Source of the DNA: Marispirochaeta aestuarii
Lineage (GTDB): Bacteria; Spirochaetota; Spirochaetia; JC444; Marispirochaetaceae
Reading direction: 5' to 3'
NCBI RefSeq assembly: GCF_002087085.1
Contig: NZ_MWQY01000008.1
Location: 62,001-126,000 of the forward strand
Length of the DNA: 64,000 bases
Below, piece after piece: positions 11,063-29,451 of the stretch (position 1 is its first letter; every line of letters starts with the position of its first letter). A program made the position numbers and the translations under genes. Under the pieces are notes generated by a model, which saw only the letters and a list, made by a program, of their open reading frames with translations, was not told where the DNA came from and searched no databases.

Positions 11063-12205
11063 TCACGCCCTGAATCCTCCGCCTTTCCTGCGGAACTGCG
11101 CCGGCGTCATTCCGGTCTGTTCACGGAAACGGAAAAAAAACCGCTGCACCGACCCAAAGCCGGACTCCCCGGCAACGGCCTCCATTGTCTTGTCGGTACT
11201 TCGCAGGATTCGGCCGGCAACCCGAATCTTCTGGACAGTCAGTGCCTGATGCAGGGTCTGTCCGGTTTCCCGTTTAAAACGGGTTTCCAGACTCCTTCTT
11301 CCCGAGGCAAGTTCATCAACCAGATCGGCGACCTTCTTACGGTGCCCATCACTGCCGCGGATAATGCGAAGGGCGGAGACCACCAGGGGATCGCTGCTGG
11401 CATACGAGGAGGTGGATTCCCTTTCAATGATATCCCCGGGCGGGACCTCAACTGTATTCACCCCCGGGTCTGCCCTCTCCCCGGAATCCATGAGCTGATC
11501 AAGCTGTGCAGCAGCCAGGGCACCAATTCTTTCCAGGTTCAACGCTATGGAGGAGAGGGAGGGATTTGCCAGTTCACAGGGGATGTCCTCGTTATCGACA
11601 CCCAGAATGGCTATCTGCCCAGGTACATCGAATCCTTCAGCGGCGCATACGCTGCTTACCCTGAGTCCGACCTTGTCGTTACAGGCAAAGAGTCCCACCG
11701 GGCCGGGAAGCCCTTCCAGAAAGGAAGCGAGCTCTTTACTGAAGTTTTCCAGGAGCCACCAGCGAAGGGGCCGCAAAAAAACCGGCAGATCCGGCTGCCC
11801 GGTCTCATGCATGAAACCCGACAGACGCTGCCGTGACCACTCTCCCGGCGAGGTTCCGCAGTAGGCAAAACTGGAAAAACCCTTCTCCATAAAATGCCGC
11901 CCCGCCAGCCTGCCGGTCTGATAGTCATCGTTGGAAACCCTGCGGACCCGGGGCATCACGAAGGCATTGGCAACATCCACCACCGGGCATGTGAGTCCCG
12001 ACAGGCCGGATACCTGTTCCGCAAATTCCAGGCGGGTAATAACACCGTCGCCGTCCCATGCAGGAAGATCCTCCAGGGGAGAGAACATCCAGCCCTGCCC
12101 GTAGAGCCGCCAATCCGGTTTATTCCTGGCATATTTTACAATGCCCCGGGCAACGCCGTGATCATAATAGTCGGAAAGCCCCATCCCCAGGGCGATGCGT
12201 TTCAT
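11063..12205 (-). CDS. XylR-type AraC-family regulator with sugar-binding N-terminal domain
   Basis: A 380-residue regulator with the XylR layout: an N-terminal LacI-like periplasmic-binding-protein fold (MKRIALGMGLSDYYDHGVARGIVKYA, then VSNDDYQTGRLAGRHFMEKGF and ILGVDNEDIPCELANPSLSSI; residues 1-270) fused to a C-terminal AraC double HTH (LETRFKRETGQTLHQALTVQKIRVA and SGFGSVQRFFFRFREQTGMTPAQFRRK; residues about 275-380). In E. coli XylR binds xylose and activates xyl genes at direct repeats. Here it is divergent from the aldo/keto reductase and lactonase genes, so an L-fucose-like sugar is the likely ligand. Its own -10 box (TATACT) ends 6 bases before the ATG, so its mRNA is probably leaderless. 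Confidence 0.9.
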   Translation of the reverse strand: MKRIALGMGLSDYYDHGVARGIVKYARNKPDWRLYGQGWMFSPLEDLPAWDGDGVITRLEFAEQVSGLSGLTCPVVDVANAFVMPRVRRVSNDDYQTGRLAGRHFMEKGFSSFAYCGTSPGEWSRQRLSGFMHETGQPDLPVFLRPLRWWLLENFSKELASFLEGLPGPVGLFACNDKVGLRVSSVCAAEGFDVPGQIAILGVDNEDIPCELANPSLSSIALNLERIGALAAAQLDQLMDSGERADPGVNTVEVPPGDIIERESTSSYASSDPLVVSALRIIRGSDGHRKKVADLVDELASGRRSLETRFKRETGQTLHQALTVQKIRVAGRILRSTDKTMEAVAGESGFGSVQRFFFRFREQTGMTPAQFRRKGGGFRA

Positions 12206-12211
12206 TTCATG

Positions 12212-12240
12212 AGTATAACAGGAAATCCGGTTTCTTGCGT
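12212..12240 (-). promoter_or_regulatory. Promoter of XylR-type gene, leaderless geometry
   Basis: On the minus strand TATACT (12212-12217) ends 6 bases before the ATG at 12205. The hexamer 17 bases upstream is ACGCAA (12235-12240), a poor -35 box, so an activator may be needed. Confidence 0.5.
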
Positions 12241-12255
12241 TATTCGGTATGAGCT

Positions 12256-12273
12256 ATGCGCATTTTGCGCATT
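12256..12273. promoter_or_regulatory. Probable operator between XylR-type gene and fucose oxidation genes
   Basis: The site can be read as a perfect inverted repeat ATGCGCA TTT TGCGCAT, or as two direct copies of TGCGCATT 9 bases apart. AraC-family proteins usually bind direct repeats. It abuts the -35 box of the downstream promoter (12272), the right place for activation by the divergent XylR-type regulator. Confidence 0.55.
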
Positions 12274-12300
12274 GCCGGGAGGAGCCGGGGGATTCATAAT
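12272..12300 (+). promoter_or_regulatory. Promoter of aldo/keto reductase gene, leaderless geometry
   Basis: TTGCCG (12272-12277), 17-base spacer, CATAAT (12295-12300), 6 bases, then ATG at 12307. No ribosome site lies between the -10 box and the ATG. Confidence 0.6.
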
Positions 12301-12306
12301 TGCAGA

Positions 12307-13356
12307 ATGAATACCAGAAAGCTGCACCACAGCCTTGGAAAAACCGGGATCCGCGTACCCGAACTGATCTTCGGTACCAGCGCCCTGGGAAACCTCTATC
12401 GTGAACTCGACGGCGAGTCCAAAGAGCAGATCGTTGAAGGCTGGTTCAAGGCGATCCCCTCCCCGGTCTGCATCGACAGCGCCGGAAAATACGGCGCCGG
12501 TCTGGCCCTGGAAGAGATCGGCAAAGCTCTCCGACGCCTGGGAAAACAGGCCCGGGATATCGTCATAAGCAACAAGCTCGGCTGGAAGCGGATTCCCCTC
12601 CGGGAGACGGAACCGACCTTTGAGCCCGGGGTCTGGAAGAACCTGCACCATGACGCGGTGCAATCCATCGGCTACGAAGGAATCCTGGAGTGCTGGGAGC
12701 AGGGGAACACCCTGCTGGGAGAGGGCTGCAGGGCAGAGCTGCTTTCGGTCCATGACCCTGACGAGTACCTGGCGGCCGCAGCATCAGAGACGGACAGGGC
12801 AGAACGATTTCGGGATATCCGGGAAGCCTACCGTGCCCTGGAAGATCTTAAACGCTCCGGTGATGCCGCCGCCATCGGAATCGGATCCAAGGACTGGAGG
12901 GTAATCCGGGAGGTCCTGGAAAAGGTTGAGGTCGACTGGATCATGCTGGCCGACAGTCTGACGATATATACCCATCCCGGGGAGCTTCTCAGCTTTATTG
13001 CGGAACTGGATAAGAACGGGGTCTATGTAATCAACTCCGCCCTCTTTAATTCCGGCTTTCTGGTGGGGGGAGCCTACTTTGACTACAGACCGGTTGATCC
13101 ATCGGGATCTCCGGAGCTGTTTCGGTGGCGGGAGAAATTCAACCGGGTGTGCCGGCAGTATGCGGTAAGCCCCGCGGAGGCCTGCATCGAGTTCGGGCTG
13201 GCTCCAAAGGCGGTCAGGTCAGTCGCTCTGAATACGACACGACCTGAACGTATTGCAGAGAATGTGGCCAGCCTGGAGAGTCGGGCACCCCGGGAGTTCT
13301 GGGATACCCTTCTTGAACAGGGCCTGATCTCCGTAACGCCGGAGCAGCTCAGATGA
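12307..13356 (+). CDS. Aldo/keto reductase, probable L-fucose (D-threo-aldose) 1-dehydrogenase
   Basis: Start ATG 12307 (MNTRKLHHSLGKTGIRVPELIFGTSALGNLY); an in-frame ATG upstream falls inside the operator and is unlikely. The 349-residue protein has the AKR TIM-barrel motifs: GTSALGNLY, catalytic Asp/Tyr in DSAGKYGAG, Lys in ISNKLGW and His in LSVHDPDEYL. The C-terminal NAD(P)-binding loop is VALNTTRPERIAENVA. It resembles D-threo-aldose or L-fucose dehydrogenases, which oxidise L-fucose to L-fuconolactone with NAD(P). The next gene, a fuconolactonase-type hydrolase, overlaps it by 4 bases and supports this. Other aldose substrates (L-galactose, D-arabinose) are possible. Confidence 0.82.
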   Translation: MNTRKLHHSLGKTGIRVPELIFGTSALGNLYRELDGESKEQIVEGWFKAIPSPVCIDSAGKYGAGLALEEIGKALRRLGKQARDIVISNKLGWKRIPLRETEPTFEPGVWKNLHHDAVQSIGYEGILECWEQGNTLLGEGCRAELLSVHDPDEYLAAAASETDRAERFRDIREAYRALEDLKRSGDAAAIGIGSKDWRVIREVLEKVEVDWIMLADSLTIYTHPGELLSFIAELDKNGVYVINSALFNSGFLVGGAYFDYRPVDPSGSPELFRWREKFNRVCRQYAVSPAEACIEFGLAPKAVRSVALNTTRPERIAENVASLESRAPREFWDTLLEQGLISVTPEQLR

Positions 13357-14204
13357 GCAGGGTCATCGATTCCCACCACCATCTCTGGAACTTTTCCGAA
13401 GCGGAGTATGACTGGATACGCCGGGACATGAGCGTACTGAGACAGGATTTTACCCCCGAAATGCTCTATTCGGAGCTTGCCGCCTCGGGTATCGACGGAT
13501 GCGTGGCGGTGCAGGCCCGGCAGAGCCTGGAAGAGACCGACCGGCTGCTGGCCCTGGCGAAGGACTCCCCCTTCATAAAGGGCGTTATCGGCTGGTTCCC
13601 CTTACAGAACGACAGCGTGGAAAAGGAGATAGCATCCAGAGTCGAAGGCGGACCCGACAGACACCTGGTGGGTGTTCGACACGTGGTAGAGGATGAGCCG
13701 GACCCCCGCTTCATCCTGGGGGAGAGTTTCAACCGCGGTGTAGGTCTTTTGGAGAATTACGGGCTGGTGTACGATATCCTCGTAAACGAGGGGCAGCTTC
13801 CGGAGGTCCTTGAGTTCGTGGACCGCCATCCCCGGCAAATCTTCGTTCTGGACCACCTTGCCAAACCGCGCATCGCCGCGGGAGAGCTCCACCCCTGGAA
13901 AAAAAACCTGAAGGCCCTTGCCGGGAGGGAGAACGTGTATTGTAAAATCTCCGGGCTGGTCACCGAGGCCGACTGGCACAGCTGGACCCCCGATGACCTC
14001 AAGCCCTACCTGGATACAGCCTTTGAAGCCTTTGGTGCCCGACGGCTCATGTTCGGCAGCGACTGGCCGGTCTGCCTGCTGGCCTCCAGCTACCGGAAAT
14101 GGTACCGGACACTGGCCGTTTACTGCGCCGGGCTGAGTTCCGACGAGAAGGAAGCTGTATTCTCCGGGAACGCGGAGAAAATATACAGACTGGGGCTTTC
14201 ATGA
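13353..14204 (+). CDS. Amidohydrolase-family sugar lactonase, probable L-fucono-1,5-lactonase
   Basis: A 283-residue protein of the metal-dependent amidohydrolase family 2 (COG3618). Motifs: metal-binding IDSHHHLWN at the N terminus (residues 5-13), VGVRHVVEDEP (His about 110), FVLDHLAKP (His about 169) and MFGSDWPVC (catalytic Asp about 236). COG3618 contains L-fucono-1,5-lactonase and L-rhamnono-lactonase, which open the lactone made by the sugar dehydrogenase. The start overlaps the aldo/keto reductase stop (ATGA), so the two enzymes are made together and form steps 1 and 2 of oxidative fucose breakdown. No fuconate dehydratase is present in the window. Confidence 0.83.
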   Translation: MSRVIDSHHHLWNFSEAEYDWIRRDMSVLRQDFTPEMLYSELAASGIDGCVAVQARQSLEETDRLLALAKDSPFIKGVIGWFPLQNDSVEKEIASRVEGGPDRHLVGVRHVVEDEPDPRFILGESFNRGVGLLENYGLVYDILVNEGQLPEVLEFVDRHPRQIFVLDHLAKPRIAAGELHPWKKNLKALAGRENVYCKISGLVTEADWHSWTPDDLKPYLDTAFEAFGARRLMFGSDWPVCLLASSYRKWYRTLAVYCAGLSSDEKEAVFSGNAEKIYRLGLS

Positions 14205-14261
14205 GAAGCATCCGGAATGCAGAAAGCCCGGGGACCGCAGCGGGCCCGGGGCGTATTTTTC

Positions 14262-14290
14262 TTGAGGCCACAGAAAAGCCGGGATATACT
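14262..14290 (+). promoter_or_regulatory. Promoter of response regulator operon, leaderless geometry
   Basis: TTGAGG (14262-14267), 17-base spacer, TATACT (14285-14290), 7 bases, then ATG at 14298. The frame is open further upstream, but the promoter position argues for the ATG at 14298. Confidence 0.65.
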
Positions 14291-14297
14291 GCTTTCG

Positions 14298-15863
14298 ATG
14301 TATAGACTGATTCTTGTGGATGACGAGGCAATAATTCGCGACGGCATCTCCTCCTGCCTGCCCTGGGAAACGAACGGTTTTATACTGGCGGGGATGTTCG
14401 AACACGGTGTTCAGGCCCTGGATTACCTGAAAAACAACCATGTGGACGTGGTAATCTCGGATATAAACATGCCGCGAATGGACGGTCTGGAGCTGAGCGG
14501 CCACATCTCCCGAACCTTTCCCGAAACCGAGGTGATTATACTTACCGGTTTCGATGATTTCGAATACGCCCAGGAAGCGGTAAAATACCATGTCCGGGAC
14601 TTTCTGCTGAAGCCGATAACCGCCGCAGAGCTGGGAACGGCCCTGGAAAAGGTAAAAAAGGAGCTGGACGAAAAAAAAGCCGCCAGAGCTCTGCAGGAAC
14701 AGATGAAGGAGAAACTCGAGCAGAGCTTTCCCCTGCTGCGGGAGCGTTTTCTCTACCGTCTTGCCTCGGGAAAGCTCGAAACGGAGATCATACAGAGGAG
14801 GAAGGAGTACTTCCAGTGGGAGGATCTTGGCTGCTTTTATCAGGTTCTGATGCTGGAGATCCCCGTATTCTGGAGTGAACTGGAGCGGATCGCCCTCTCC
14901 GAATCCGTCAGATCGGATATAGCCGAATATGATGAAGTTTTTACCGACCAGGAGGAGAACCTCGTCCTGCTTCTTCAGGAAAAGGATGAAGAAGCCATGA
15001 CCTTCAAGACCCGAGAAATTGCCCAGGGTGCGTACAGGGAGGTATCACGGCTTCGGAAGGACCAGATCGCCGCAGGATGCGGTCGTATTGTCAGCTCCCT
15101 AGCGGATCTTCCGGGGGCCTTCGAAGGCGCCCGGAACGCCCTGGATTACTCCAGGGTACTCGGTCTTTCCCAGATAGTATTCATTGACGAGGTACGGAAC
15201 AGAAAAACCATCTCCCCCGAAGGCTTCACCCTGTATTCCGGCAGAATCCTCGATCAGCTCAAGGCCGGGTGCGAGCGGCAGACACGGGAAGCGATGGATG
15301 AACTCTTCCACTATCTGGAAAACCACTATCTGACCATGAACGAGGCGGCATACTATTTTATCCGGCTCCACTCCATTCTGCTCTATTTTCTGCAGGAGAT
15401 GGATCTTTCCCCGGAGGATCAGTCCCTCCTCTCCTATCAGCCGGACTGCTTCCATTCCCTGCGGGATGCCCAGGGCTTCTTCAATCGCATGATCGAGGAG
15501 ATAGAACGCTGTATCCGAAAGCGGCGTCACGAGATGATGCTTTCCCGGGTGGAGAAGGCGAAGAAGATAATCGCCGAGGAGTATACCGATCCGGCTTTTT
15601 CCCTGAGCAGGATGTGTGATCAGCTCTACCTTTCCACCAGCCAGTTCAGCGTGCTCTTCAAGGAGGGGACGGGACAGACCTTTGTGGAATACCTGACCTC
15701 CTTCAGGATCAATGCCGCCAAACAGCTTCTCAAAACCACCGACCTGAAAAGTTACGAGATCGCCGAGCGAACAGGATATACCGACCCCCGGTATTTTTCC
15801 CTCCTGTTCAAGAAAAACACGAACATGACCCCCATGGAATACCGGAAGAGTCTTGAACAATGA
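14298..15863 (+). CDS. YesN-type response regulator with AraC output domain
   Basis: A 521-residue response regulator. The receiver domain (1-120) begins MYRLILVDDEAIIRDGI with acidic Asp8/Asp9, phospho-acceptor Asp55 in VVISDINMPRMDGLEL and Lys in DFLLKPI. A long helical linker (about 120-415) follows, and the C terminus (about 420-521) is an AraC-type double HTH (YLSTSQFSVLFKEGTGQTFVEYLTSFRINAA; YTDPRYFSLLFKKNTNMTPMEYRK). It is the output partner of the sensor kinase that follows with a 4-base overlap. By position it should activate the ABC importer genes downstream (18733-22638), as LytS/YesN pairs do for sugar uptake. Confidence 0.92.
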   Translation: MYRLILVDDEAIIRDGISSCLPWETNGFILAGMFEHGVQALDYLKNNHVDVVISDINMPRMDGLELSGHISRTFPETEVIILTGFDDFEYAQEAVKYHVRDFLLKPITAAELGTALEKVKKELDEKKAARALQEQMKEKLEQSFPLLRERFLYRLASGKLETEIIQRRKEYFQWEDLGCFYQVLMLEIPVFWSELERIALSESVRSDIAEYDEVFTDQEENLVLLLQEKDEEAMTFKTREIAQGAYREVSRLRKDQIAAGCGRIVSSLADLPGAFEGARNALDYSRVLGLSQIVFIDEVRNRKTISPEGFTLYSGRILDQLKAGCERQTREAMDELFHYLENHYLTMNEAAYYFIRLHSILLYFLQEMDLSPEDQSLLSYQPDCFHSLRDAQGFFNRMIEEIERCIRKRRHEMMLSRVEKAKKIIAEEYTDPAFSLSRMCDQLYLSTSQFSVLFKEGTGQTFVEYLTSFRINAAKQLLKTTDLKSYEIAERTGYTDPRYFSLLFKKNTNMTPMEYRKSLEQ

Positions 15864-17644
15864 GACGATTTATCAGCTTCGGTACCCTGGGTTCCCGCAT
15901 ATATATCACCTTTACGGTAATGATCTTCGCCACCATCTTTATCATGCAGCTGGTTGCCTTCCGCTTTACCCTGACCACAGTTCGTAACTCGACCCTGGAA
16001 ACAAATCAGGCCATGCTGGGGCAGCTCACCCGGCAGATAGACTCTTACATCCAGGGGATGGAAAAGATCGCTTCGGCGGTTCTGGAGAATCCTGAACTTC
16101 AGCGTCTGCTGGAGGGAGATGGGATCGAAGGAGACCGCAGCGCAGTGGAGACAATGCTGGCTCATTATATACAGGCCCGGGACGACATCTCTGAAATACT
16201 CATTTTTCCCCCCGGGGGTTCCGTTATATCCAGCGATCCGGATATGGAGATAAACCCCTGGACTGACTATACCCTCCGCCCCTGGTATGTAAAGGCCCTT
16301 GCCGCCGAAGGAAAAACCGTTGTATCCGGTTCCTACGTCCAGAATCTGGTCAGGGGACAGTACTCCTGGGTGGTTTCCCTGAGCCGGCAGATCAATACCA
16401 GACACAGGGCAAGCACCCCCGGAATACTCCTTGTAGACCTCAAGTTCAACAGGATACAGGAGCTGTGCCAGTCCATGGTTATCGGCAAGAAAGGATACAA
16501 CTTCGTTATAGACGAGCAGGGAAATTACGTCTTCCACCCGACCCAGCAGCTGGTCTACAGCGACCTGAAAAACGAACCCATCGACCGGATAATAAACCTG
16601 GTCGAAGACAGTGAACGCATAACCTACAGTGACGGGGAACGCTACTTCATGGTGGACACATCTCCCCTTACCGGCTGGCACATGGTGAGCGTCCTCAGAT
16701 CCGACGACATCATCACCGAATGGCGGAACGTTCAGGCCGGTTACGCCATAATAGGACTTGTACTCTTTCTTATCGTAGGAATCGCCACCAACACCGTCAC
16801 CCTGGGAATTACCAAGCCTATCAGGCAGCTGCAGGAAACCATGAAGAGCGTCGATACAGGAGATTTTCAGCTGGTCGGCCGTATCAGGGCAACGGATGAA
16901 ATCCAGGAGCTTGCCCGGGAGTACGACATAATGGTAACAAGAATCCGGGAACTGATGCAGGAGAACATTCAGGAGCAGGAGCTCAAACGGAAGAGCGACC
17001 TGAAGGCCCTGCAGGCCCAGATAAATCCCCACTTTCTCTACAATACCCTGGATTCAATCATCTGGATGGGAGAAATGCAGCAGAATTCAGCGGTGGTTCT
17101 CATGACCTCCGCCCTGGCACGACTCTTCCGCATCAGCATCAGCAAGGGACGGGAGCTGATCTCCATAAAGGACGAAATAGACCATGTACAATCCTATCTG
17201 ACCATCGAGGAGATGCGCTATCGGAACAAATTCGACTACGTGATCGATGTGGACCCCGGCCTCTACGAGTTCGAGATACTGAAGATAACCCTTCAGCCCC
17301 TGGTGGAAAACGCCATATACCACGGCATCAAGGAGATTGATGAAAAGGGCCGCATAAGCATCCGGGGCAGAAAGGAGGACGAGACAATCGTGTTTACCGT
17401 CCAGGATAACGGCAGAGGTATGGCACCGGAGCAGCTCCGGCTTCTGAACTCGGCCCTGCAGCACCCCTTCATGGAGCAGGGGCGTCATGCCCGGGGCGGC
17501 ATGGGGGTGGGAATCCGGAATGTACACGCCCGGCTCAGGCTCTACTTCGGTGAGGATTTCGGTATCTCCTGCAGAAGCCGCCGCGGAGAGGGAACCACGA
17601 TAACAATTGTTTTCCCGGCGAGAAAAGGAGAGTCCACGGTATGA
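15860..17644 (+). CDS. YesM/LytS-type sensor histidine kinase
   Basis: A 594-residue membrane kinase: TM1 (about 13-35), extracytoplasmic double-Cache-like sensor (about 36-290, with DYTLRPWYVKALAAEGKTVVSGSYV and GWHMVSVL), TM2 (about 294-314), HAMP (ITKPIRQLQETMKSVDTGDFQL), coiled coil, then a His_kinase/HATPase module. The phospho-acceptor His is in LQAQINPHFLYNTLDSIIWM; the ATPase boxes are QPLVENAIYHGI and VQDNGRGMAPEQ plus GMGVGIRNVHARL. It should phosphorylate the response regulator upstream. The membrane-anchored sugar-binding protein downstream overlaps it by 4 bases and probably presents the ligand to its sensor domain. Confidence 0.92.
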   Translation: MRRFISFGTLGSRIYITFTVMIFATIFIMQLVAFRFTLTTVRNSTLETNQAMLGQLTRQIDSYIQGMEKIASAVLENPELQRLLEGDGIEGDRSAVETMLAHYIQARDDISEILIFPPGGSVISSDPDMEINPWTDYTLRPWYVKALAAEGKTVVSGSYVQNLVRGQYSWVVSLSRQINTRHRASTPGILLVDLKFNRIQELCQSMVIGKKGYNFVIDEQGNYVFHPTQQLVYSDLKNEPIDRIINLVEDSERITYSDGERYFMVDTSPLTGWHMVSVLRSDDIITEWRNVQAGYAIIGLVLFLIVGIATNTVTLGITKPIRQLQETMKSVDTGDFQLVGRIRATDEIQELAREYDIMVTRIRELMQENIQEQELKRKSDLKALQAQINPHFLYNTLDSIIWMGEMQQNSAVVLMTSALARLFRISISKGRELISIKDEIDHVQSYLTIEEMRYRNKFDYVIDVDPGLYEFEILKITLQPLVENAIYHGIKEIDEKGRISIRGRKEDETIVFTVQDNGRGMAPEQLRLLNSALQHPFMEQGRHARGGMGVGIRNVHARLRLYFGEDFGISCRSRRGEGTTITIVFPARKGESTV

Positions 17645-18639
17645 AAAAATGGTTCGTTCCCCTCCTCAGCCTGATGGCGGCGCTTGTTCTGTTCATGACC
17701 TTTTCCCTCTTCTTCGACCAGAACATCCCGGAATTGCCGAAACTGGAAAAGCCCGTTCAGATAATCATGAAATCCCGGGAACGGAAACCCATGGACTTCT
17801 GGGAGGTCGCCACCCGGGGAATAGTCGAAGCCGCCCGGGAGTACGGCCTGGAATACGAAATAAGCGGACCCCACTTCGAAAAGGAGATAGACCTCCAGAT
17901 CGAGATCGTCAATAAAATCATCGAACAGCGCCCTCCGCTTATCCTGCTGGCAGCCACTGATTACAAGCGCCTGGTCCCCTCCGTTGAGCGGGCCAGCGAG
18001 CTCGGTATACCCGTAATCACCTTCGACTCCGCTGTGGATTCCACCATCCCCGTCTCCTTTGTCGCCACCGACAACATCGAAGCGGGGGAAAAGGCCGGCA
18101 GGGAGATGAAAAGACTCATAGCTCCGCGGACCAGAAAGGAGATCGCCATCGTCAGCCATATCAAGGAGACCGCTACGGCCATTGACCGGGAAGCGGGGGT
18201 AAGAAATGCCCTGGAGGGGGAAACCATAATCGGAACCTGGTTTATCGATGTGGAGCAGGAAAAAGCCTACAGGACAACCCTGGAACTTCTGAAAAACAGC
18301 AAGCTGGGAGGCATCGTCGCCCTGAACGAAGCCGCGGCTCTGGGCGTCGGGGATGCGATCGCGGAGAAGGGAGCGCAGGACGAGGTACTGGTGGTGGGCT
18401 TTGACAATGCCACGCAGGAGCTTGCCTATCTTGAAGCGGGAGTCATTGACGCCCTGGTGGTCCAGAGACCCTACAATATGGGCTACATGTCGGTAAAAAG
18501 CGCGGCGGAATTCCTTCTTGGAAATCCGATTCCTTCCTTTATAGATACCGGATCCATCCTGATAACCAGGGAAAACATGTTCAGCAGGGAATACCAGGAG
18601 CTCCTCTTTCCCGTTCAGAACGCGGGGCATCCGGAATAA
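17641..18639 (+). CDS. Membrane-anchored sugar-binding sensor protein (XylFII-like)
   Basis: A 332-residue type I periplasmic-binding protein of the ribose/xylose class. The N terminus (WFVPLLSLMAALVLFMTFSLFF, residues 4-25) is a membrane segment without a clear cleavage site or lipobox, so the protein probably stays anchored. The binding domain has IMKSRERKPMDFWEVATRGI, PVITFDSAVDSTIPVSFVATDNIEAG and EVLVVGFDNATQELAYLEAGVIDALVVQRPYNMGYMSV. It is translated with the kinase (4-base overlap), not with the ABC genes. The arrangement matches the Clostridium XylFII-LytS-YesN three-component system, where the binding protein activates the kinase on sugar binding. Confidence 0.82.
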   Translation: MKKWFVPLLSLMAALVLFMTFSLFFDQNIPELPKLEKPVQIIMKSRERKPMDFWEVATRGIVEAAREYGLEYEISGPHFEKEIDLQIEIVNKIIEQRPPLILLAATDYKRLVPSVERASELGIPVITFDSAVDSTIPVSFVATDNIEAGEKAGREMKRLIAPRTRKEIAIVSHIKETATAIDREAGVRNALEGETIIGTWFIDVEQEKAYRTTLELLKNSKLGGIVALNEAAALGVGDAIAEKGAQDEVLVVGFDNATQELAYLEAGVIDALVVQRPYNMGYMSVKSAAEFLLGNPIPSFIDTGSILITRENMFSREYQELLFPVQNAGHPE

Positions 18640-18697
18640 CCGGAATATATTCAACATAGTCCGTAAAATTCTCGATTTCGCGATCCCGGAAACGCTG

Positions 18698-18709
18698 TGA
18701 CAATTGTCA
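18698..18709. promoter_or_regulatory. Palindrome upstream of ABC importer operon
   Basis: A perfect 12-base palindrome, TGACAATTGTCA, sits about 25 bases before the first gene of the ABC operon. It could be an operator or part of a promoter (TTGTCA); I found no convincing -10 box paired with it. Confidence 0.35.
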
Positions 18710-18732
18710 TACGATTCCAAGGAGCGCGAGTT

Positions 18733-20235
18733 TTGAAAAAAGAACCAATCCTGTCAATGAAAAATATCGACAAGCGATTTGCAGGAGTCCATGCCCTCAA
18801 GGGGGTGGATTTTGACCTCTACGCGGGAGAGGTACACGCTCTTGTGGGTGAAAACGGAGCCGGAAAATCCACCATGATGAAGGTGCTTACGGGTATTCAT
18901 CCGAAGGATTCCGGTGAGATTTTCTACATGGGGCAGCTCTTCAATCCTTCCGACCCGAAACACGCCCTGGAAATGGGAATCGGGATAATCCATCAGGAAC
19001 TGAACATGATGGACCATCTTACGGTTGCCCAGAACATCTTTATAGGACGGGAATCCACAAAGGGCCGGGGATTGTTCCTGAGCGAGAAAGACCAGAACCG
19101 GCGCACCGAGGAGCTCTTCCGGCACCTGAACATGAAGATTGACCCCACCGAACGCCTGGGAAACCTGACCGTAGGCAAGCAGCAGATGGTGGAAATCGTC
19201 AGGGCAGTATCCCACGACCTGAAGGTCCTGATTCTCGACGAACCGACAGCGGCCCTCACCAACGCGGAAATCGACGAGCTCTTCAGCATTATGCGGGATC
19301 TGGCCTCCCGGGGGGTGGGAATGATCTACATTTCCCACCGCATGGACGAAATCGCCCGCATAACCGACCGGGTAACAGTACTCCGGGACGGTGAATACGT
19401 GGGCACCCGAAATACCACGGAGACCAGCAAGGAAGAGATCATCAACATGATGGTCGGACGGGTCATCTACGAGGAGCCGAAGCAGAAGAGCAACGTGCCG
19501 CAGGATGCCGAGGTTGTGCTCAGGGTACGGGACCTGAACTCCGGCAGGATGGTCAGGAACGTCAGCTTTGAGCTGCGCAGGGGAGAGATCCTCGGTTTCG
19601 CCGGACTCATGGGAGCAGGCAGGACTGAAACAGCCCGGGCCATCTTCGGTGCAGACAGCATCGACAGCGGTATTATCGAAGTCAAGGGGCGGCCGGTAAC
19701 AATACGCTCCCCCATGGACGCGGTCTCCCACGGCATAGGCTACCTTTCGGAGGATCGTAAACGTTACGGCCTCGCCCTAGGTTTGAGCGTGAGCGAAAAC
19801 GCCATACTCCCCACCTATGAATCCTTTGTCAAGAACCTTTTCGTACAGAGCGGCCGGATAGACAGAGTGGTTGGAGAGTACGTGGACAAATTGAACATAA
19901 AAACCCCCTCGTTGGAACAGCTGCTCAAGAACCTCTCCGGAGGGAATCAGCAGAAGGTGGTCATCGCGAAATGGCTTATACGAAACAGCGATATCCTCAT
20001 CTTCGACGAACCGACCCGGGGTATCGATGTCGGGGCCAAGAGCGAAATCTACACCCTTATGAACGAACTGGTTAAGAGCGGGAAGTCCATCATCATGATC
20101 TCTTCGGAACTCCCGGAGATTCTGCGCATGAGCGACCGCATCCTGATCATGTGCGAAGGAAGAAAAACCGGCGAGCTCGATATAAGCGAAGCGAACCAGG
20201 AAGAGATTATGAAATACGCAACCATGCGTAACTGA
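18733..20235 (+). CDS. Sugar ABC importer ATP-binding protein (RbsA/MglA type, two ATPase domains)
   Basis: The start is the TTG at 18733, which has an AAGGAG site 8 bases upstream; an ATG 12 codons earlier overlaps the palindrome and has no ribosome site. The 500-residue protein carries two ABC domains. Domain 1: Walker A GENGAGKST, Walker B LILDEPTAAL. Domain 2: a degenerate Walker A (GLMGAGRTE), signature LSGGNQQKV and Walker B LIFDEPTRGIDVG. This asymmetric tandem layout is that of RbsA/MglA/XylG. It drives uptake of a monosaccharide from the periplasm with the permease and binding protein that follow. The substrate is probably L-fucose or a related deoxy sugar, from context only. Confidence 0.93.
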   Translation: MKKEPILSMKNIDKRFAGVHALKGVDFDLYAGEVHALVGENGAGKSTMMKVLTGIHPKDSGEIFYMGQLFNPSDPKHALEMGIGIIHQELNMMDHLTVAQNIFIGRESTKGRGLFLSEKDQNRRTEELFRHLNMKIDPTERLGNLTVGKQQMVEIVRAVSHDLKVLILDEPTAALTNAEIDELFSIMRDLASRGVGMIYISHRMDEIARITDRVTVLRDGEYVGTRNTTETSKEEIINMMVGRVIYEEPKQKSNVPQDAEVVLRVRDLNSGRMVRNVSFELRRGEILGFAGLMGAGRTETARAIFGADSIDSGIIEVKGRPVTIRSPMDAVSHGIGYLSEDRKRYGLALGLSVSENAILPTYESFVKNLFVQSGRIDRVVGEYVDKLNIKTPSLEQLLKNLSGGNQQKVVIAKWLIRNSDILIFDEPTRGIDVGAKSEIYTLMNELVKSGKSIIMISSELPEILRMSDRILIMCEGRKTGELDISEANQEEIMKYATMRN

Positions 20236-20252
20236 AACAGGAGTCTTGTGCA

Positions 20253-21485
20253 ATGAAAAAACTAGTCAGTGAAAAGAGTCTGCAAAAACTTATGGCCCCT
20301 GCAGCGCTGGTAATCCTTTATCTGTTTTTCGGATTCTTCGGGCGGAACTTCTTCTCCTATGCCACATTGGTAAATATCTTCGATGCCTCCTATTATATCG
20401 GGTTCATAGCCATAGGAGTAACCTTCGTAATAATAACAGGCGGCATAGACCTCTCCGTGGGAACCGTGATGATGTGCGCATCCATCATCGGCGGTACCGC
20501 CTACGTCACATGGGGCTGGCCCATGTGGGCTTCCCTTCTGCTGATCCTGCTGATCGGAACCCTCTTCGGCGTTTTCAACGGTATTATGGTCTCCCGGCTG
20601 AAGCTTCCCCCCTTTATTGCAACCCTCGGGACAATGATGATCTCCATGGGTATCGGTTCCATCGTATCCAACGTCAGAAGCGCGACCTTTCCTACCCGTG
20701 CCGGCGAAGACGGCTGGTTCAAGAACATATTCAAGATAATTACCGAGGACTATCAGTCGATTCCCACCGGAGCCGGGGTCCTTCTGCTCGTCGCATTGAT
20801 TGCCTACATCATCCTGACAAAAACCAGAATGGGCCGCTACATCTTCGCCATCGGCAGCAACAAGGAAGCCGCCCGGCTTTCCGGGATAAACGTAAAGAAA
20901 TGGGAGATGATGGCCTATGTTACCAGCGGGGTCTGTGCAGGCATAGGAGGGATCGCCTTCCCTGCGGTCTATACCACCGTCATGCCCGCCCAGGGCCAGG
21001 GATTCGAGCTCTACGCCATCGCCGCTGCGGTAATCGGCGGCACCTCCCTCTCCGGCGGGATCGGGTCGATCTTCGGAACCCTTATCGGTGTGTACATCAT
21101 AAGCGTGCTCCGTTCCGGACTTCCGTCAATGGACCTGCAGGCCCATTACCAGACCTTCTTTACCGGGGTCGTTGTAATCGGCGCCGTTCTGCTGGATATC
21201 TACCGCAATAAAAAGGCCTCGGAAATCCGCATCCTCTCCGCAGCGGACAGGTATCGGGCAGACATGAACGAAAAAATAAAAGCCCTGAAGCAGCGTCTTT
21301 CCGCAGTCGCCGGGGACGAAGCGGAGGGAATCAAAAAAGAGATTTCCCGGCTGAAACATGAACGGAACCATGAATTCAGAAAAATGAAACGTGAACAGAA
21401 ACATACCCAGACGCAGATAAAACGGGAAGAGCGTCTGGCTGAGGAAGAACTGAAGCGCCGGCTGGAAGAAGAGGCCGGAGAATAA
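20253..21485 (+). CDS. Sugar ABC importer permease (RbsC type) with charged C-terminal tail
   Basis: The first ~314 residues are a typical RbsC/MglC permease: about eight to ten membrane segments, with the conserved VTFVIITGGIDLSVG and GSNKEAARLSGINV loops (coupling to the ATPase) and GGTSLSGGIGSIFG. The protein is 410 residues, longer than the usual 320-350: from residue 315 on, a hydrophilic, Lys/Glu/Arg-rich tail of about 95 residues (IKALKQRLSAVAG..., ISRLKHERNHEFRKMKREQ..., EERLAEEELKRRLEEE) is predicted by eye to form a cytoplasmic helical coiled coil. Frame and codon use continue smoothly, so it is not a sequencing frameshift. It lies 17 bases after the ATPase gene with a GGAG site. 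Confidence 0.92.
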   Translation: MKKLVSEKSLQKLMAPAALVILYLFFGFFGRNFFSYATLVNIFDASYYIGFIAIGVTFVIITGGIDLSVGTVMMCASIIGGTAYVTWGWPMWASLLLILLIGTLFGVFNGIMVSRLKLPPFIATLGTMMISMGIGSIVSNVRSATFPTRAGEDGWFKNIFKIITEDYQSIPTGAGVLLLVALIAYIILTKTRMGRYIFAIGSNKEAARLSGINVKKWEMMAYVTSGVCAGIGGIAFPAVYTTVMPAQGQGFELYAIAAAVIGGTSLSGGIGSIFGTLIGVYIISVLRSGLPSMDLQAHYQTFFTGVVVIGAVLLDIYRNKKASEIRILSAADRYRADMNEKIKALKQRLSAVAGDEAEGIKKEISRLKHERNHEFRKMKREQKHTQTQIKREERLAEEELKRRLEEEAGE

Positions 21486-21534
21486 GGTTGATACCCTGAA
21501 CGTGTATTCAGGAAAAAATAACAGGAGGAATTTC

Positions 21535-22638
21535 ATGAATCTATCCAAGAGAGCATGTATCGCAATCCTTGCACTGATCATGCTGACAGTCTTTTCCCTG
21601 GGCTCATTTGCCGCAGGACAGAAAGACAGCGGAACCCCCTACATCGCCGTTGTATCCAAGGGTGAACAGCACGACTTCTGGCAGCAGGTAAAGCTTGGAG
21701 CCACCGCCGCTGCTGCAGAATTGGGAGTAAGCATGACCTTTGAAGGTCCCGCTTCGGAAAGCGACGTGCAGGACCAGGTGGAGATGCTCAATGTCGCCCT
21801 GGCCAAGGCCCCCGCGGCCATAGCCCTGGCGGCCCTCGATACCAACTCGGTAATCGACCAGCTCATCGAGGCCAGAAACCGGAAGATTCCGGTAATCGGT
21901 TTCGACTCCGGCGTTCCCGAAGCCCCGGAAGGATCGATCTACGCCAACGCCTCAACCGACAACTACAATGCCGCCGGTGTGGCTGCGGAAAAGATGTTCG
22001 AGGTGATCGGTGACAAAATCAAAGGGGCAAGCGCCGCCAATCCCGTTAAAATTGTAGTCATGAACCAGGATGCCTCCGGCGAATCCCTGCTGAGCCGCGG
22101 ACGCGGATTCCGGGACCGGATGGTGGAACTCGTTGTGTCCAAGGCCGGAATGGCAAAAAGCGATATCAAGGTTATGGGAAACCCCGCCTACATCGCCTCT
22201 GACAGCCCCACCTCGGGCAACAAGGTCATGATCGAGATGGTCGTGCCCGCATCCGCCTCGGCCAGCGACTCAATGGCCGCCTCCACCGCTGTTCTGAACA
22301 AGGTGAAGGAGCAGAACATTCTCGGAATCTTCTGTTCCAACGAAGCGACCGTTAAGGGCCTTCTGGCAGCCACCAACGACGGTTCCGCCCTTCCCCAGCA
22401 GTATCCGAACCTGGCGGTTGTGGGATACGACGCCGGCGCTGGACAGAAAAACGCCGTACGGAACGGCTACTTCCTCGGTTCCATAACCCAGGATCCCTAC
22501 CAGATCGGGTATAAGGCAGTGGAACTGGCCGTCAAAGCATACAAGGGCGAGCCCGTATCCGATGTTGATACCGGCGCAAAATTCTACAATGCCGACAACA
22601 TGGATGATGCCGACATCAAGGGTCTCCTGTACGATTGA
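21535..22638 (+). CDS. Sugar ABC importer periplasmic binding protein
   Basis: The start ATG 21535 follows a strong AGGAGG; an upstream in-frame ATG is less likely. The 367-residue protein has a signal peptide (ACIAILALIMLTVFSLGSFAA) followed by GQKDSG. The mature part is a type I periplasmic-binding protein (ribose/galactose class): YIAVVSKGEQHDFWQQVKLGATAAAAELGV, KIPVIGFDSGVPEAPEGSIYANASTDNYNAAG, VVGYDAGAGQKNAVRNGYFLGSITQDPYQIGYKAVELAV. It delivers sugar to the importer encoded just upstream. It is the third gene of the ABC operon; an intrinsic terminator lies 44 bases after its stop. Confidence 0.93.
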   Translation: MNLSKRACIAILALIMLTVFSLGSFAAGQKDSGTPYIAVVSKGEQHDFWQQVKLGATAAAAELGVSMTFEGPASESDVQDQVEMLNVALAKAPAAIALAALDTNSVIDQLIEARNRKIPVIGFDSGVPEAPEGSIYANASTDNYNAAGVAAEKMFEVIGDKIKGASAANPVKIVVMNQDASGESLLSRGRGFRDRMVELVVSKAGMAKSDIKVMGNPAYIASDSPTSGNKVMIEMVVPASASASDSMAASTAVLNKVKEQNILGIFCSNEATVKGLLAATNDGSALPQQYPNLAVVGYDAGAGQKNAVRNGYFLGSITQDPYQIGYKAVELAVKAYKGEPVSDVDTGAKFYNADNMDDADIKGLLYD

Positions 22639-22682
22639 TCCGAAAGTACACGTGTAAAATGTTCATAAGCTAAAGATACAAG

Positions 22683-22714
22683 CAGGTTGCCGGATAATCC
22701 GGCAGCCTGTTTTT
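22683..22714 (+). terminator. Intrinsic terminator between binding-protein gene and rhaM
   Basis: Stem CAGGTTGCCGGA / TCCGGCAGCCTG (12 bp with one G-T wobble) around a 3-base loop, followed by TTTTT. The ribosome site of rhaM begins only 6 bases after the T run, so rhaM has no room for its own promoter after the hairpin and must be reached by read-through. Confidence 0.85.
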
Positions 22715-22732
22715 AGTATACGGAGGAAGAAA

Positions 22733-23056
22733 ATGCAGCGTCATGGTCAGATTATTAAACTGAAGCCCGGCGTTCTGGAAAGTTATGCCAAGTATCACAG
22801 TGAAGTCTGGCCCGGAGTTCTCGCGACAATCCGGGAGTGCAATATACGCAACTACTCCATCTTTCACAAGGATGGTTTCCTGTTCGCCTATTTTGAATAC
22901 GTGGGAAACGACTTTGATAAGGACATGCAGAAGATGGCGGATGATCCGCTGACCCGGGAGTGGTGGAAGATCATGGGGCCCATGCAGGAGCCCCTGAAGA
23001 CCAGGAAAGAAGGAGAATGGTGGGCCGAGATGGACGAGGTCTTCCACCTCGAATAG
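22733..23056 (+). CDS. rhaM: L-rhamnose mutarotase family protein
   Basis: A 107-residue protein of the RhaM family (COG3254). Recognisable segments are the N-terminal strand GQIIKLKPGVLESYAKYHSEVWPGVLATI (catalytic-type His22 in YHSEVWP), IRNYSIFHKDGFLFAYFEY (Tyr18-type position replaced by conserved aromatic), DPLTREWWKIMGPMQEPL with the WW pair, and the end EMDEVFHLE. RhaM interconverts alpha and beta anomers of L-rhamnose; homologues in fucose loci probably act on L-fucose, which shares stereochemistry at the anomeric side. Strong ribosome site CGGAGGA. It sits downstream of a terminator and next to the convergent kinase gene. Confidence 0.88.
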   Translation: MQRHGQIIKLKPGVLESYAKYHSEVWPGVLATIRECNIRNYSIFHKDGFLFAYFEYVGNDFDKDMQKMADDPLTREWWKIMGPMQEPLKTRKEGEWWAEMDEVFHLE

Positions 23057-23077
23057 GGTCCCCCGGGCAGGACTGTT

Positions 23078-24559
23078 CTATTCGGGGTAGAGCCTGCAGA
23101 AGCGGCGGAAATCATCGTCCCACCCGGTCCGTGTCCCGGGCTCGTAGCGTTCCGGTTTGACCGCCGAAGCCACCAGACGGCGTCCTGCGGCCAGATCGGA
23201 AATCAGGCCCTGCCCCGCTGCCTGAAGGATGATATTCCCCAGGGCGGTGGCCTCCGCAGGGCCTGCTACAACCGGACGTCCTGTCGCCTGGGCAGCCATA
23301 CGGCAGAGAAGGCGATTCCTGACTCCCCCGCCGACAATGTGTATCACCGGATACTTCTTCCCCGTGAGTCCTTCGATTCCTTCCATGGTCCTGCGATACA
23401 CCAGGGCAAGACTTTTGAAGATGCAGCAGGCTATCTGGCCCTCCTTCCGGGGAACCTCCTGCCGGGTCTCCGCCGCGGCAGCGCGTATTTCCTCCGGCAT
23501 GTTTTCAGGCGCGGTAAAGCGCTGATCCATGGGATTTATCAGCGTCCCGAAGGACAATTCCGACTCCGCCATCTCGACCAGCCGGCTGTAATCGAAGACC
23601 CTCCCCTCCCGGTCCCAGATACGCTTGCATTCCTGGATGAGCCAGAGCCCCATAATATTGCTCAGGAGGCTGATTTTCCCTCCGGCACCGATCTCATTGG
23701 TAATCCTGAGTTCCGCCGCCCGGGTACTGAGGACCGGTTCATCGGTCTCGACCCCCATAAGACTCCAGGTACCCGAGGAGAGGTAGATAAAATCCTCTTT
23801 TTCCGCGGGAACAGCGGCTATCGCCGACTGGGTGTCGTGGGAGCACGTCGCGAATACCCTGGTACCCGACAGACCGGTAAAGGCCTCCACGTCGGCGCTG
23901 ACGGGCCCCAGCTCTTCCCCGGGCTTAATTATGGGAGTAAAAAGTCCCTCCGGGTACCCGAGTTTCCTGATCAAGGGCCGGTTCCAGTCACGTTTCCGGG
24001 GATCCACCAGGGCGCTGGTGGAAGCGATGGAGAGTTCGCTCCGCAGTTTACCCGTCAGAAAATAATTCAGCAGATCCGGAGTCATGGCAAGCGCCCGGGC
24101 GGATTCGAAGAGTTCCCGGTTCTCCTCCCGCTCCGCAAAGAGCTGAAAAACCGTATTGATGCTCATCATCTGGATCCCCCCGGCGGCGTAGAGCTCGTTT
24201 TCCGGAACGAGGGCAAAGAGCTTTTCCGGTATCCCCTCGGTTCGGACGTCCCTGTAGTGACGGGGGTTCGACAGGAGCCTGCCGTCTTTCCCGATAAGCC
24301 CGTAGTCCACTCCCCAGGTATCCACTGCAAGGGAGAGAATTCCCCCGCCGAAATCCCGCCGGTGGATTATAAGAGCCTCCAGGATCTCCCGGTAGAGGGC
24401 CAGGATGTCCCAGTGGAACCGTCCGTTCAGCCTGACCGGACGGTTCTCGAAACGGTGAAGGGTTTCGACCTCCAGGGAATCCCCCTCCAGACGTCCTGCA
24501 ATGCAACGTCCGGAGGAGGCTCCGAAGTCGAAGGCGAGAATGTCGCCTTTCGGTCTCAT
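23078..24559 (-). CDS. FGGY carbohydrate kinase (rhamnulokinase/fuculokinase type)
   Basis: A 493-residue kinase most like RhaB: ILAFDFGASSGRCIAGRLEG at the N terminus (phosphate loop), LAVDTWGVDYGLIGKDG, VFATCSHDTQSAIAAVPAEKEDFIYLSSGTWSLMGVET (catalytic Asp in SHDT), SNIMGLWLIQECKRIW and the ATP-site VIHIVGGGVRNRLLCRMAAQATGRPV. Rhamnulokinases phosphorylate L-rhamnulose at C1. Here the gene follows fucI with only 2 bases between stop and start, so the natural substrate is more likely L-fuculose. No fuculose-1-phosphate aldolase gene is visible in the window; it must be elsewhere. The kinase is convergent with rhaM. Confidence 0.88.
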   Translation of the reverse strand: MRPKGDILAFDFGASSGRCIAGRLEGDSLEVETLHRFENRPVRLNGRFHWDILALYREILEALIIHRRDFGGGILSLAVDTWGVDYGLIGKDGRLLSNPRHYRDVRTEGIPEKLFALVPENELYAAGGIQMMSINTVFQLFAEREENRELFESARALAMTPDLLNYFLTGKLRSELSIASTSALVDPRKRDWNRPLIRKLGYPEGLFTPIIKPGEELGPVSADVEAFTGLSGTRVFATCSHDTQSAIAAVPAEKEDFIYLSSGTWSLMGVETDEPVLSTRAAELRITNEIGAGGKISLLSNIMGLWLIQECKRIWDREGRVFDYSRLVEMAESELSFGTLINPMDQRFTAPENMPEEIRAAAAETRQEVPRKEGQIACCIFKSLALVYRRTMEGIEGLTGKKYPVIHIVGGGVRNRLLCRMAAQATGRPVVAGPAEATALGNIILQAAGQGLISDLAAGRRLVASAVKPERYEPGTRTGWDDDFRRFCRLYPE

Positions 24560-28072: not shown

Positions 28073-28777
28073 ATGCCGATTGTATTGCCCATTGCAGACA
28101 GCAGGGAGACGTACACTATTAATCCGGGAAAAATCATTGCTGTTGGACTCAACTATGTGGACCACGTAAAAGAGAGCAACATCTACGACACAAAGGAGCT
28201 GGACATTCCCAAGGAACCGGTCATCTTCGCAAAAACCCCGAACGTACTCATCGGACCGGGAGAGGAGATTGTAATCCCCGCTTTCCTGAAGGAGTACAAC
28301 TTCCCTGAACTCAGGGTCGATTATGAAGCCGAACTGGCGGTGATAATCGGGAAGGGGGGTAAAAACATTCCCGAAGAGTCCGCCCTGGACCACGTTTTCG
28401 GCTTCTGCTGCTTCAACGACGTCTCCGCCAGGAACATCCAGAAAACCGACACCTCCGGCTGGTTCCGGGGAAAATCCCTGGACACCTTCGGCCCCATTGG
28501 CCCGGTGGTCGTGCCGCGGGAAAAGATCGCGGACATACAGAACCTCACTGTACAGTGCCGCCTGAACGGCAGGGTCGTACAGAAGGCATCGACTTCGCAG
28601 ATGATCTTTCCCGTGGCCCGCCTGATACACTACATCAGCCGTAACATGAGCCTCAATGCGGGAGACATTATCGCCACGGGTACCCCCTCCGGCGTGGGAC
28701 CCATCAGGCAGGGAGATACGGTGGAGATCGACATAGAAGGTATCGGCATCCTGAAAAATCCGGTTGTGGAGGAATAG
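28073..28777 (+). CDS. Fumarylacetoacetate hydrolase (FAH) family protein
   Basis: A 234-residue FAH-family enzyme. Motifs: IIAVGLNYVDHVKES (start of the catalytic domain, His in the active-site lid), EPVIFAKTPNVLIGPGEEIVIP, metal ligands in VDYEAELAVIIGK (Glu-x-Glu), FGFCCFNDVSARNIQ (Asp), WFRGKSLDTFGPIGPVVV (Lys) and IIATGTPSGVG. Enzymes of this size are acylpyruvases or oxaloacetate decarboxylases that cleave C-C bonds of oxo-acids. In oxidative L-fucose breakdown the last step is done by an FAH-family hydrolase, so this gene could belong to that pathway, but its partner gene is a phosphoribosyltransferase and the link is a guess. Ribosome site AAAGGAGG. Confidence 0.87.
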   Translation: MPIVLPIADSRETYTINPGKIIAVGLNYVDHVKESNIYDTKELDIPKEPVIFAKTPNVLIGPGEEIVIPAFLKEYNFPELRVDYEAELAVIIGKGGKNIPEESALDHVFGFCCFNDVSARNIQKTDTSGWFRGKSLDTFGPIGPVVVPREKIADIQNLTVQCRLNGRVVQKASTSQMIFPVARLIHYISRNMSLNAGDIIATGTPSGVGPIRQGDTVEIDIEGIGILKNPVVEE

Positions 28778-28793: not shown

Positions 28794-28823
28794 TTGATCA
28801 AAGAGGCCCCGCCCTGTTAGACT
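28794..28823 (+). promoter_or_regulatory. Promoter of small transcription unit
   Basis: TTGATC (28794-28799), 18-base spacer, TAGACT (28818-28823). The same TAGACT -10 box is used at 31964 and 38900. Transcription would start near 28831. Confidence 0.6.
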
Positions 28824-28857
28824 GAATCAAGAAACTTGTTGGATAAGGAGGTGTTCC

Positions 28858-28902
28858 ATGAAGAGGAACCGTTTCCGCCCCAACACAGCTAAGGCCGGCT
28901 GA
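28858..28902 (+). CDS. 14-residue basic peptide in a stand-alone short transcript
   Basis: A 14-codon ORF (MKRNRFRPNTAKAG) with one of the strongest ribosome sites in the window (TAAGGAGGTG, 6 bases before the ATG). It lies between a promoter (28794-28823) and an intrinsic terminator (28924-28961), so the whole unit is about 130 bases. The stop codon falls in the loop of a hairpin (GCCGGC TGAGT GCCGGC, 28894-28910), and that stem can also pair with the terminator arms (GCCGGT and ACCGGC), a layout like a translation-controlled attenuator. No gene follows on this strand. It could be a leader-peptide remnant, a peptide gene or a small regulatory RNA. I do not recognise a family. Confidence 0.45.
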   Translation: MKRNRFRPNTAKAG

Positions 28903-28923
28903 GTGCCGGCATAAATATATAAC

Positions 28924-28961
28924 GCCGGTGGCCTGCAAAGCGGGGGACCGGCATTTTTTTT
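28924..28961 (+). terminator. Intrinsic terminator of the small transcript
   Basis: Stem GCCGGT / ACCGGC, 2x2 internal GG/GG loop, inner stem CCTGC AAA GCGGG (one wobble pair), then A and eight Ts. A strong rho-independent terminator on the plus strand, 22 bases after the stop of the 14-codon ORF. Confidence 0.85.
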
Positions 28962-28971
28962 ATGGTCACCC

Positions 28972-29451
28972 TCAGGTATAGTCCCCTGTCCTGGTGTCCC
29001 TGTCGACGGCGTACTTTTTCGGGGCGTACAAAAAGCTGAAGGAGACCGCTCCCTCCCTGGTTGCCGTGGAATGGTGGGTCCGGTGGGCATTGATTATCCG
29101 CTTCATATAGGAGTTCTTCGGCCGGTACCGCAGCCGCTTGATTCGCCGATGGAACATGATGTCATGAAACAATACATATCCCGCACCGTACAGAGCGACA
29201 CCGAATCCCGAAGCCGCCATAAGGTAGATCCCCTGCTTTAAACCATTATAGATCAGCAGAAACGAAATAAAGGCAAAAACCAGAGCATAAACGTCATTCT
29301 TCTGCAGCCTGTGCCGTGGGCGGTGGTGATCCTCATGGAGAAACCAGCCGAATCCATGCATAACGTATTTGTGCATGAACCAGGCCACGAATTCGAAAAA
29401 TATCGCGGACGCAAGAAAAACCACGGCGTAGCCGAGCCATCGCAGTATCAC
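28972..29451 (-). CDS. crtZ: Beta-carotene hydroxylase-like protein (CrtZ type)
   Basis: A 159-residue membrane protein of the fatty-acid hydroxylase/carotenoid hydroxylase superfamily. The di-iron histidine motifs of CrtZ are in order: HKYVMHG (His27, His32), HEDHHRPRH (His39, His42, His43), VLFHDIMFHRR and NAHRTHHSTATREGAVSFSFLYAP; three to four membrane segments separate them. CrtZ adds hydroxyl groups to the beta-ionone rings of carotenoids (zeaxanthin synthesis). No other carotenoid gene is in the window. It lies 12 bases after the LysR gene on the same strand, so the pair is probably cotranscribed. Confidence 0.88.
   Translation of the reverse strand: MILRWLGYAVVFLASAIFFEFVAWFMHKYVMHGFGWFLHEDHHRPRHRLQKNDVYALVFAFISFLLIYNGLKQGIYLMAASGFGVALYGAGYVLFHDIMFHRRIKRLRYRPKNSYMKRIINAHRTHHSTATREGAVSFSFLYAPKKYAVDRDTRTGDYT

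Follow-up and report, generated by a model that had tools for sequence, protein, structure and literature searches.

What is the role of a compact unit with a promoter-like stretch, a strong ribosome site, a 14-codon open reading frame and a terminator, behind which no gene follows? The question is raised by positions 28794 to 28961 of the window, the 64,000-nucleotide stretch of DNA analyzed here. An earlier note had read this segment as an orphan mini-transcript with alternative hairpins, a reading supported by orthologues in both congeners and by the pairing available between the second hairpin arm and the third. Three species keep the unit in the same place, and on sequence comparison it is very probably a genuine but unannotated mini-gene, present in single copy and specific to its genus.

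Anatomy and genomic setting of the unit

The unit is flanked on its 5′ side by a FAA-hydrolase-family gene (28073–28777, plus strand), itself downstream of a phosphoribosyltransferase-domain gene, and on its 3′ side by a convergent fatty-acid-hydroxylase-family gene (28972–29451, minus strand). The nearest named relative of the FAA hydrolase belongs to a Spirochaetes MAG. On the plus strand, the next conserved gene begins near 30263. As had been claimed for the window, no sense-strand gene lies directly after the terminator, either in the window genome (G000) or in its congeners G001 and G002, and the convergent gene follows in all three. In G001 (C546, ∼21141–23328), two or three genes of the same strand as the unit lie past the convergent gene, the first resembling LemA as judged by eye; these genes are absent from that place in G000. 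Elsewhere in the window, an 11.5-kb block (11151–22642) has the opposite orientation in G002 with respect to the sequence on either side.

A direct sequence check located all of the anatomy claimed beforehand, namely the ORF, the ribosome site, the GCCGGC hairpin and the terminator. The putative promoter (28794–28823, plus strand) consists of TTGATC (28794–28799) and TAGACT (28818–28823) separated by an 18-nt spacer, with an extended −10 element (TGT, the TG at 28815–28816). Its sequence and position are as proposed, but it is the weakest element of the unit: it matches 8 of 12 consensus bases, a score below the threshold of a standard promoter scan, which left it unreported. The Shine-Dalgarno sequence AAGGAGGTG (28845–28853, plus strand) is the complement of the 16S 3′ end, GGCTGGATCACCTCCTT, which was found in G001 and G002; this 16S pattern had no match within the G000 assembly. 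Only seven sites in the 4.2-Mb G000 genome, the unit's included, place AAGGAGGTG closely 5′ of an ATG, in agreement with the very strong ribosome site described beforehand.

The ORF, MKRNRFRPNTAKAG (28858–28902, plus strand), spans 14 codons and ends in a TGA (28900–28902) that sits in the loop of hairpin P2 (GCCGGC-TGAGT-GCCGGC, 28894–28910, plus strand), whose arms (28894–28899 and 28905–28910) form 6 bp in predicted folds. A 13-base A/T-rich linker, ATAAATATATAAC (28911–28923, plus strand), unpaired in predicted folds, leads into the intrinsic terminator, P3 (28924–28961, plus strand), with GCCGGT (28924–28929) facing ACCGGC (28947–28952) and a T run from 28954. The same standard scan missed this terminator because its interrupted stem and long outer-arm distance fall outside the scan pattern. 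Beyond the anatomy given in the earlier note, a putative closing helix, P1 (28838–28884, plus strand), pairs GTTGG (28838–28842) with CCAAC (28880–28884) and encloses both the Shine-Dalgarno sequence and the start codon. The whole G000 RNA is predicted to be more stable than nearly all shuffles (folding z = −3.45).

Conservation within the genus

The earlier note had proposed conservation in relatives as a test, and the unit is indeed found at the same position in each of the two congeners. In all three species compared (G000, G001 and G002), it lies between the FAA-hydrolase gene and the convergent fatty-acid-hydroxylase-family gene. The G002 unit (ORF MKRNRTNPNTGKAGQLPA) is ∼79% identical to that of G000, and the G001 unit (ORF MKRIAYTNIGNAG) is far more diverged. 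Alignment of the three species reveals the invariant blocks GTTGG, GGAGGTGnTCnATGAA, CCAAC, GCCGG, CCGGCAT, ATATA, GCCGGT, ACCGGC and T6, between which the promoter region and the ORF core vary. The GGAGGTG of the Shine-Dalgarno sequence, the ATATA core of the linker and the GTTGG/CCAAC of P1 are thus invariant in all three. At the sequence level, the conserved features are the Shine-Dalgarno sequence, the ATG, the reading frame, P1, P2, the terminator and the locus.

The same overall RNA shape is predicted for the three species (folding z of −3.4, −3.9 and −2.2), with 5–6 bp of P2 kept in each and a predicted terminator of −16.2 to −23.0 kcal/mol. P1 is part of the minimum-free-energy fold in G000 and G001, and forms in G002 through a second copy of CCAAC; as it shows no compensatory change, the helix is not proven. 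More generally, the stem arms are nearly invariant and no covariation was seen, so conservation and fold support the RNA structure without proving it.

The promoter region differs between the species. G002 retains TTGATC-18-TACACT with TGC, and G001 a promoter-like pair, TTGAAT-17-GATAAT, that is unrelated to the G000 hexamers, matches 9 of 12 consensus bases and is spaced from the unit by a similar distance. For a putative promoter, the G001 pair is better evidence than are the G000 hexamers. In G002 alone, the −35 hexamer is overlapped by a perfect 16-bp palindrome, CTGCTTGATCAAGCAG, possibly a regulator site; as a conserved operator this palindrome was rejected, being kept in neither G000 nor G001.

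Could such a unit be a product of chance or a drifting leftover? The comparison rests on three species, the G000 promoter is weak, and the identity between G000 and G002 equals that of other intergenic stretches, so the G002 comparison says little. The conservation signal appears to lie in the pattern, mainly against G001, rather than in overall identity: the features named beforehand (Shine-Dalgarno sequence, ATG and hairpin arms) agree with G001 at 32 of 36 positions, compared with 63 of 133 among all remaining positions (Fisher p = 4e-6). A composite scan for a strong Shine-Dalgarno sequence, an ATG, 8–30 codons and a terminator, run on 335 kb from the three genomes, returned exactly one match per genome, each the unit or its orthologue; the G000 match is the only one in the 64-kb window. 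A looser scan over 1.2 Mb of loci, with other start codons allowed, yielded four other matches, three of them with TTG starts. Under simulated random drift, the composite anatomy survived in 1–2 of 5000 runs at 42–60% identity and in 38 of 5000 at 70%. Chance or a leftover is therefore disfavoured and very improbable, and the conservation likewise speaks against the regulatory remnant that had been suggested.

Beyond the genus, the unit was not recovered. Covariance models built from the three sequences retrieve those three at E values of 1e-25 or lower and found nothing convincing in ∼390 other genomes of the class; matches in eight of these (G025, G048, G075, G078, G080, G087, G129 and G316) covered only the terminator and A/T linker, lacked the Shine-Dalgarno–ATG segment and were rejected. 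Within the G000 genome, a BLASTN search for a second copy gave only short chance matches, and weak model matches at G000:C10 and G002:C4 were discarded as copies for want of a Shine-Dalgarno sequence, ATG and ORF. The unit is also absent after the FAA-hydrolase gene in another genus of the family (G003) and in another family (G012), and thus looks genus-specific. In both of these genomes an aminotransferase-like gene (judged by eye) immediately follows the FAA-hydrolase gene, a gene order absent from the genus of G000. No Rfam family matches the unit at gathering score. In a virus collection, six pattern matches were obtained, none convincing by model, and the Shine-Dalgarno–ATG pattern gave zero.

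Candidate products and mechanisms

Several observations favour translation of the mini-ORF. The frame from the ATG to the hairpin arm is kept in the orthologues, including across a 3-nt length difference in G001, and the arginine of MKR is retained despite a synonymous change of two bases (AGG to CGA); several further synonymous changes separate the G000 and G002 ORFs. Together with the very strong Shine-Dalgarno sequence, these features would suit a peptide product, a basic chain of 13–18 residues acting in trans. However, codons 4–8 vary freely between a constant start region and constant arms, such that the peptide core differs in every species (NRFRP, NRTNP and IAYT), and the conserved N and AG residues fall on CCAAC and GCCGG, which P1 and P2 require. 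The stop codon, described beforehand as lying in the GCCGGC/GCCGGC loop, does so in G000 and G001 but not in G002, where the frame continues to a TAA past the hairpin and the C-terminus is extended. With its middle variable and its stop position unkept, the peptide is a less apparent target of conservation than ribosome binding and RNA shape, and the variable core favours the RNA as the product. The ORF is also too short for a codon-rate test, and a trans-acting peptide appears improbable.

The geometry also invites comparison with a ribosome-dependent attenuator. The ORF ends on arm 1, as in Trp-type leaders, with the stop in the loop in G000 and G001, and pairing of arm 2 with arm 3 of the terminator is possible in all three species, as the earlier note had anticipated for these arms. 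This alternative pairing (computed at −7.7 to −9.1 kcal/mol) is weaker than P2 (−10.3 to −12.2 kcal/mol) and the terminator, and a ribosome-gated switch is physically possible on these energies. The specific form proposed, in which ribosome position decides termination, is not supported: judging from the normal footprint size, a ribosome with TGA in its A site would cover both P2 arms, and the G002 stop falls after the hairpin. Since no sense gene directly follows in any of the three species, the unit is not an ordinary leader attenuator. In an orphan version, a ribosome paused just ahead of arm 1 would free arm 2 for pairing with arm 3, causing the terminator to fail, and read-through would run antisense into the gene at 28972–29451, whose convergent arrangement is kept in 3/3 species. 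Such a free-standing attenuator, a full leader-peptide switch with no gene behind it, might deliver a ribosome-gated small RNA or, upon terminator failure, an antisense or extended RNA. Yet there is no repeated control codon, neither control codons nor an arrest motif are kept across the three species, in which the peptide core is variable, and the stop position is not kept in G002. The case for antisense control is further weakened by G002, whose convergent gene is damaged while the unit is intact. This gene (G002:C1, ∼1965530–1965890) lacks ∼39 codons relative to its window orthologue, with the HDIMFH-motif segment out of frame although the frame remains open, and has probably decayed. Overall, the orphan attenuator is unlikely.

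A further reading dispenses with a separate gene and takes the unit as the 3′ end of the FAA-hydrolase operon, with a terminator, a protective hairpin and a ribosome-retaining mini-ORF. In 3/3 species the unit begins ∼44–60 nt downstream of the stop codon of the FAA-hydrolase gene, no other terminator was seen between the two, and the P3 stem with its A/T linker could also terminate the convergent gene. This reading would leave unexplained the promoter-like stretch positioned alike in the three species, as well as the invariant Shine-Dalgarno–ATG segment and P1, and is doubtful.

Other mechanisms were considered and set aside. Sequestration of the Shine-Dalgarno sequence was rejected as a switch: the site is partly to largely paired in the three predicted folds, but its partners differ, and for G001 and G002 the stability of the isolated 5′ domain hardly exceeds that of shuffled sequences. 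No match to Hfq (PF17209) was found in the 97% complete genome, in which positive controls were detected, and an Hfq-dependent small RNA was rejected on this ground. CsrA is present, but the unit has few GGA motifs, versus the many expected of a CsrA sponge. In the linker and loops, no sequence stands out as a seed that could pair with ribosome sites.

The reading to which we give about an even chance is that of a small-RNA gene, present once and specific to the genus, whose mini-ORF engages a ribosome. Because selection retains ribosome loading and the stems while the centre of the peptide is not kept, the RNA itself is most likely the working product, and the unit most likely a regulator rather than the maker of a specific peptide. 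We infer transcription, translation and action of the RNA in trans along the following lines. RNA polymerase would start near 28830 and terminate near 28960, within the T run; the resulting RNA of ∼130 nt would have its end formed by the strong terminator. A 30S subunit would load on the near-perfect Shine-Dalgarno sequence held in a stem, with the AUG in the apical loop; the ribosome would then translate 13–18 codons and finish in or just after P2. The presence or absence of a ribosome on the RNA could thereby set its shape or lifetime.

Relation to known systems

Classical leader-peptide attenuators (trp, his, phe) end their ORF on arm 1 and alternate among 1:2, 2:3 and 3:4 pairings. The unit shares this ORF end and these potential pairings, but lacks a structural gene and a run of control codons. 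Type I toxin mRNAs likewise place a tiny ORF on a short structured RNA, as predicted here, and encode hydrophobic membrane peptides, whereas the peptides of the unit are basic and polar and no antisense partner was seen.

The anatomy resembles that of rnTrpL/peTrpL, the trp attenuator of Sinorhizobium meliloti, whose terminated RNA and peptide both act in trans (PMC7298713). There too, a 14-aa leader ORF is followed by alternative hairpins and a terminator; however, rnTrpL precedes trpE(G), starts directly at its ATG and senses Trp codons (PMC7298713), whereas the unit has a leader with a Shine-Dalgarno sequence, no following gene and no sensing codons. The unit would fit the broad kind of peptide-coding small RNAs, with an rnTrpL-like anatomy minus the gene behind. 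At least ∼10% of small RNAs are estimated to carry a coding ORF (Friedman et al. 2017, PMC5521070), and the unit likewise combines a short predicted RNA with an ORF in the range of 10–50 codons. As in that kind, the Shine-Dalgarno sequence and ORF are kept in relatives (3/3 species). The terminator of the unit is clear, and its putative promoter matches 8/12 in G000 and 9/12 in G001. Unlike the published examples (PMC5521070), the unit is known from sequence, its peptide core is unconserved and it occurs in one genus only.

Units of such small size are skipped by gene callers. Here, an exceptionally strong ribosome site coupled to a variable peptide is kept in place by the whole sampled genus, in a lineage apparently without Hfq. 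The unit would thus be a clean system in which to ask if a small RNA can be selected for the translation of its mini-ORF rather than for the encoded peptide.
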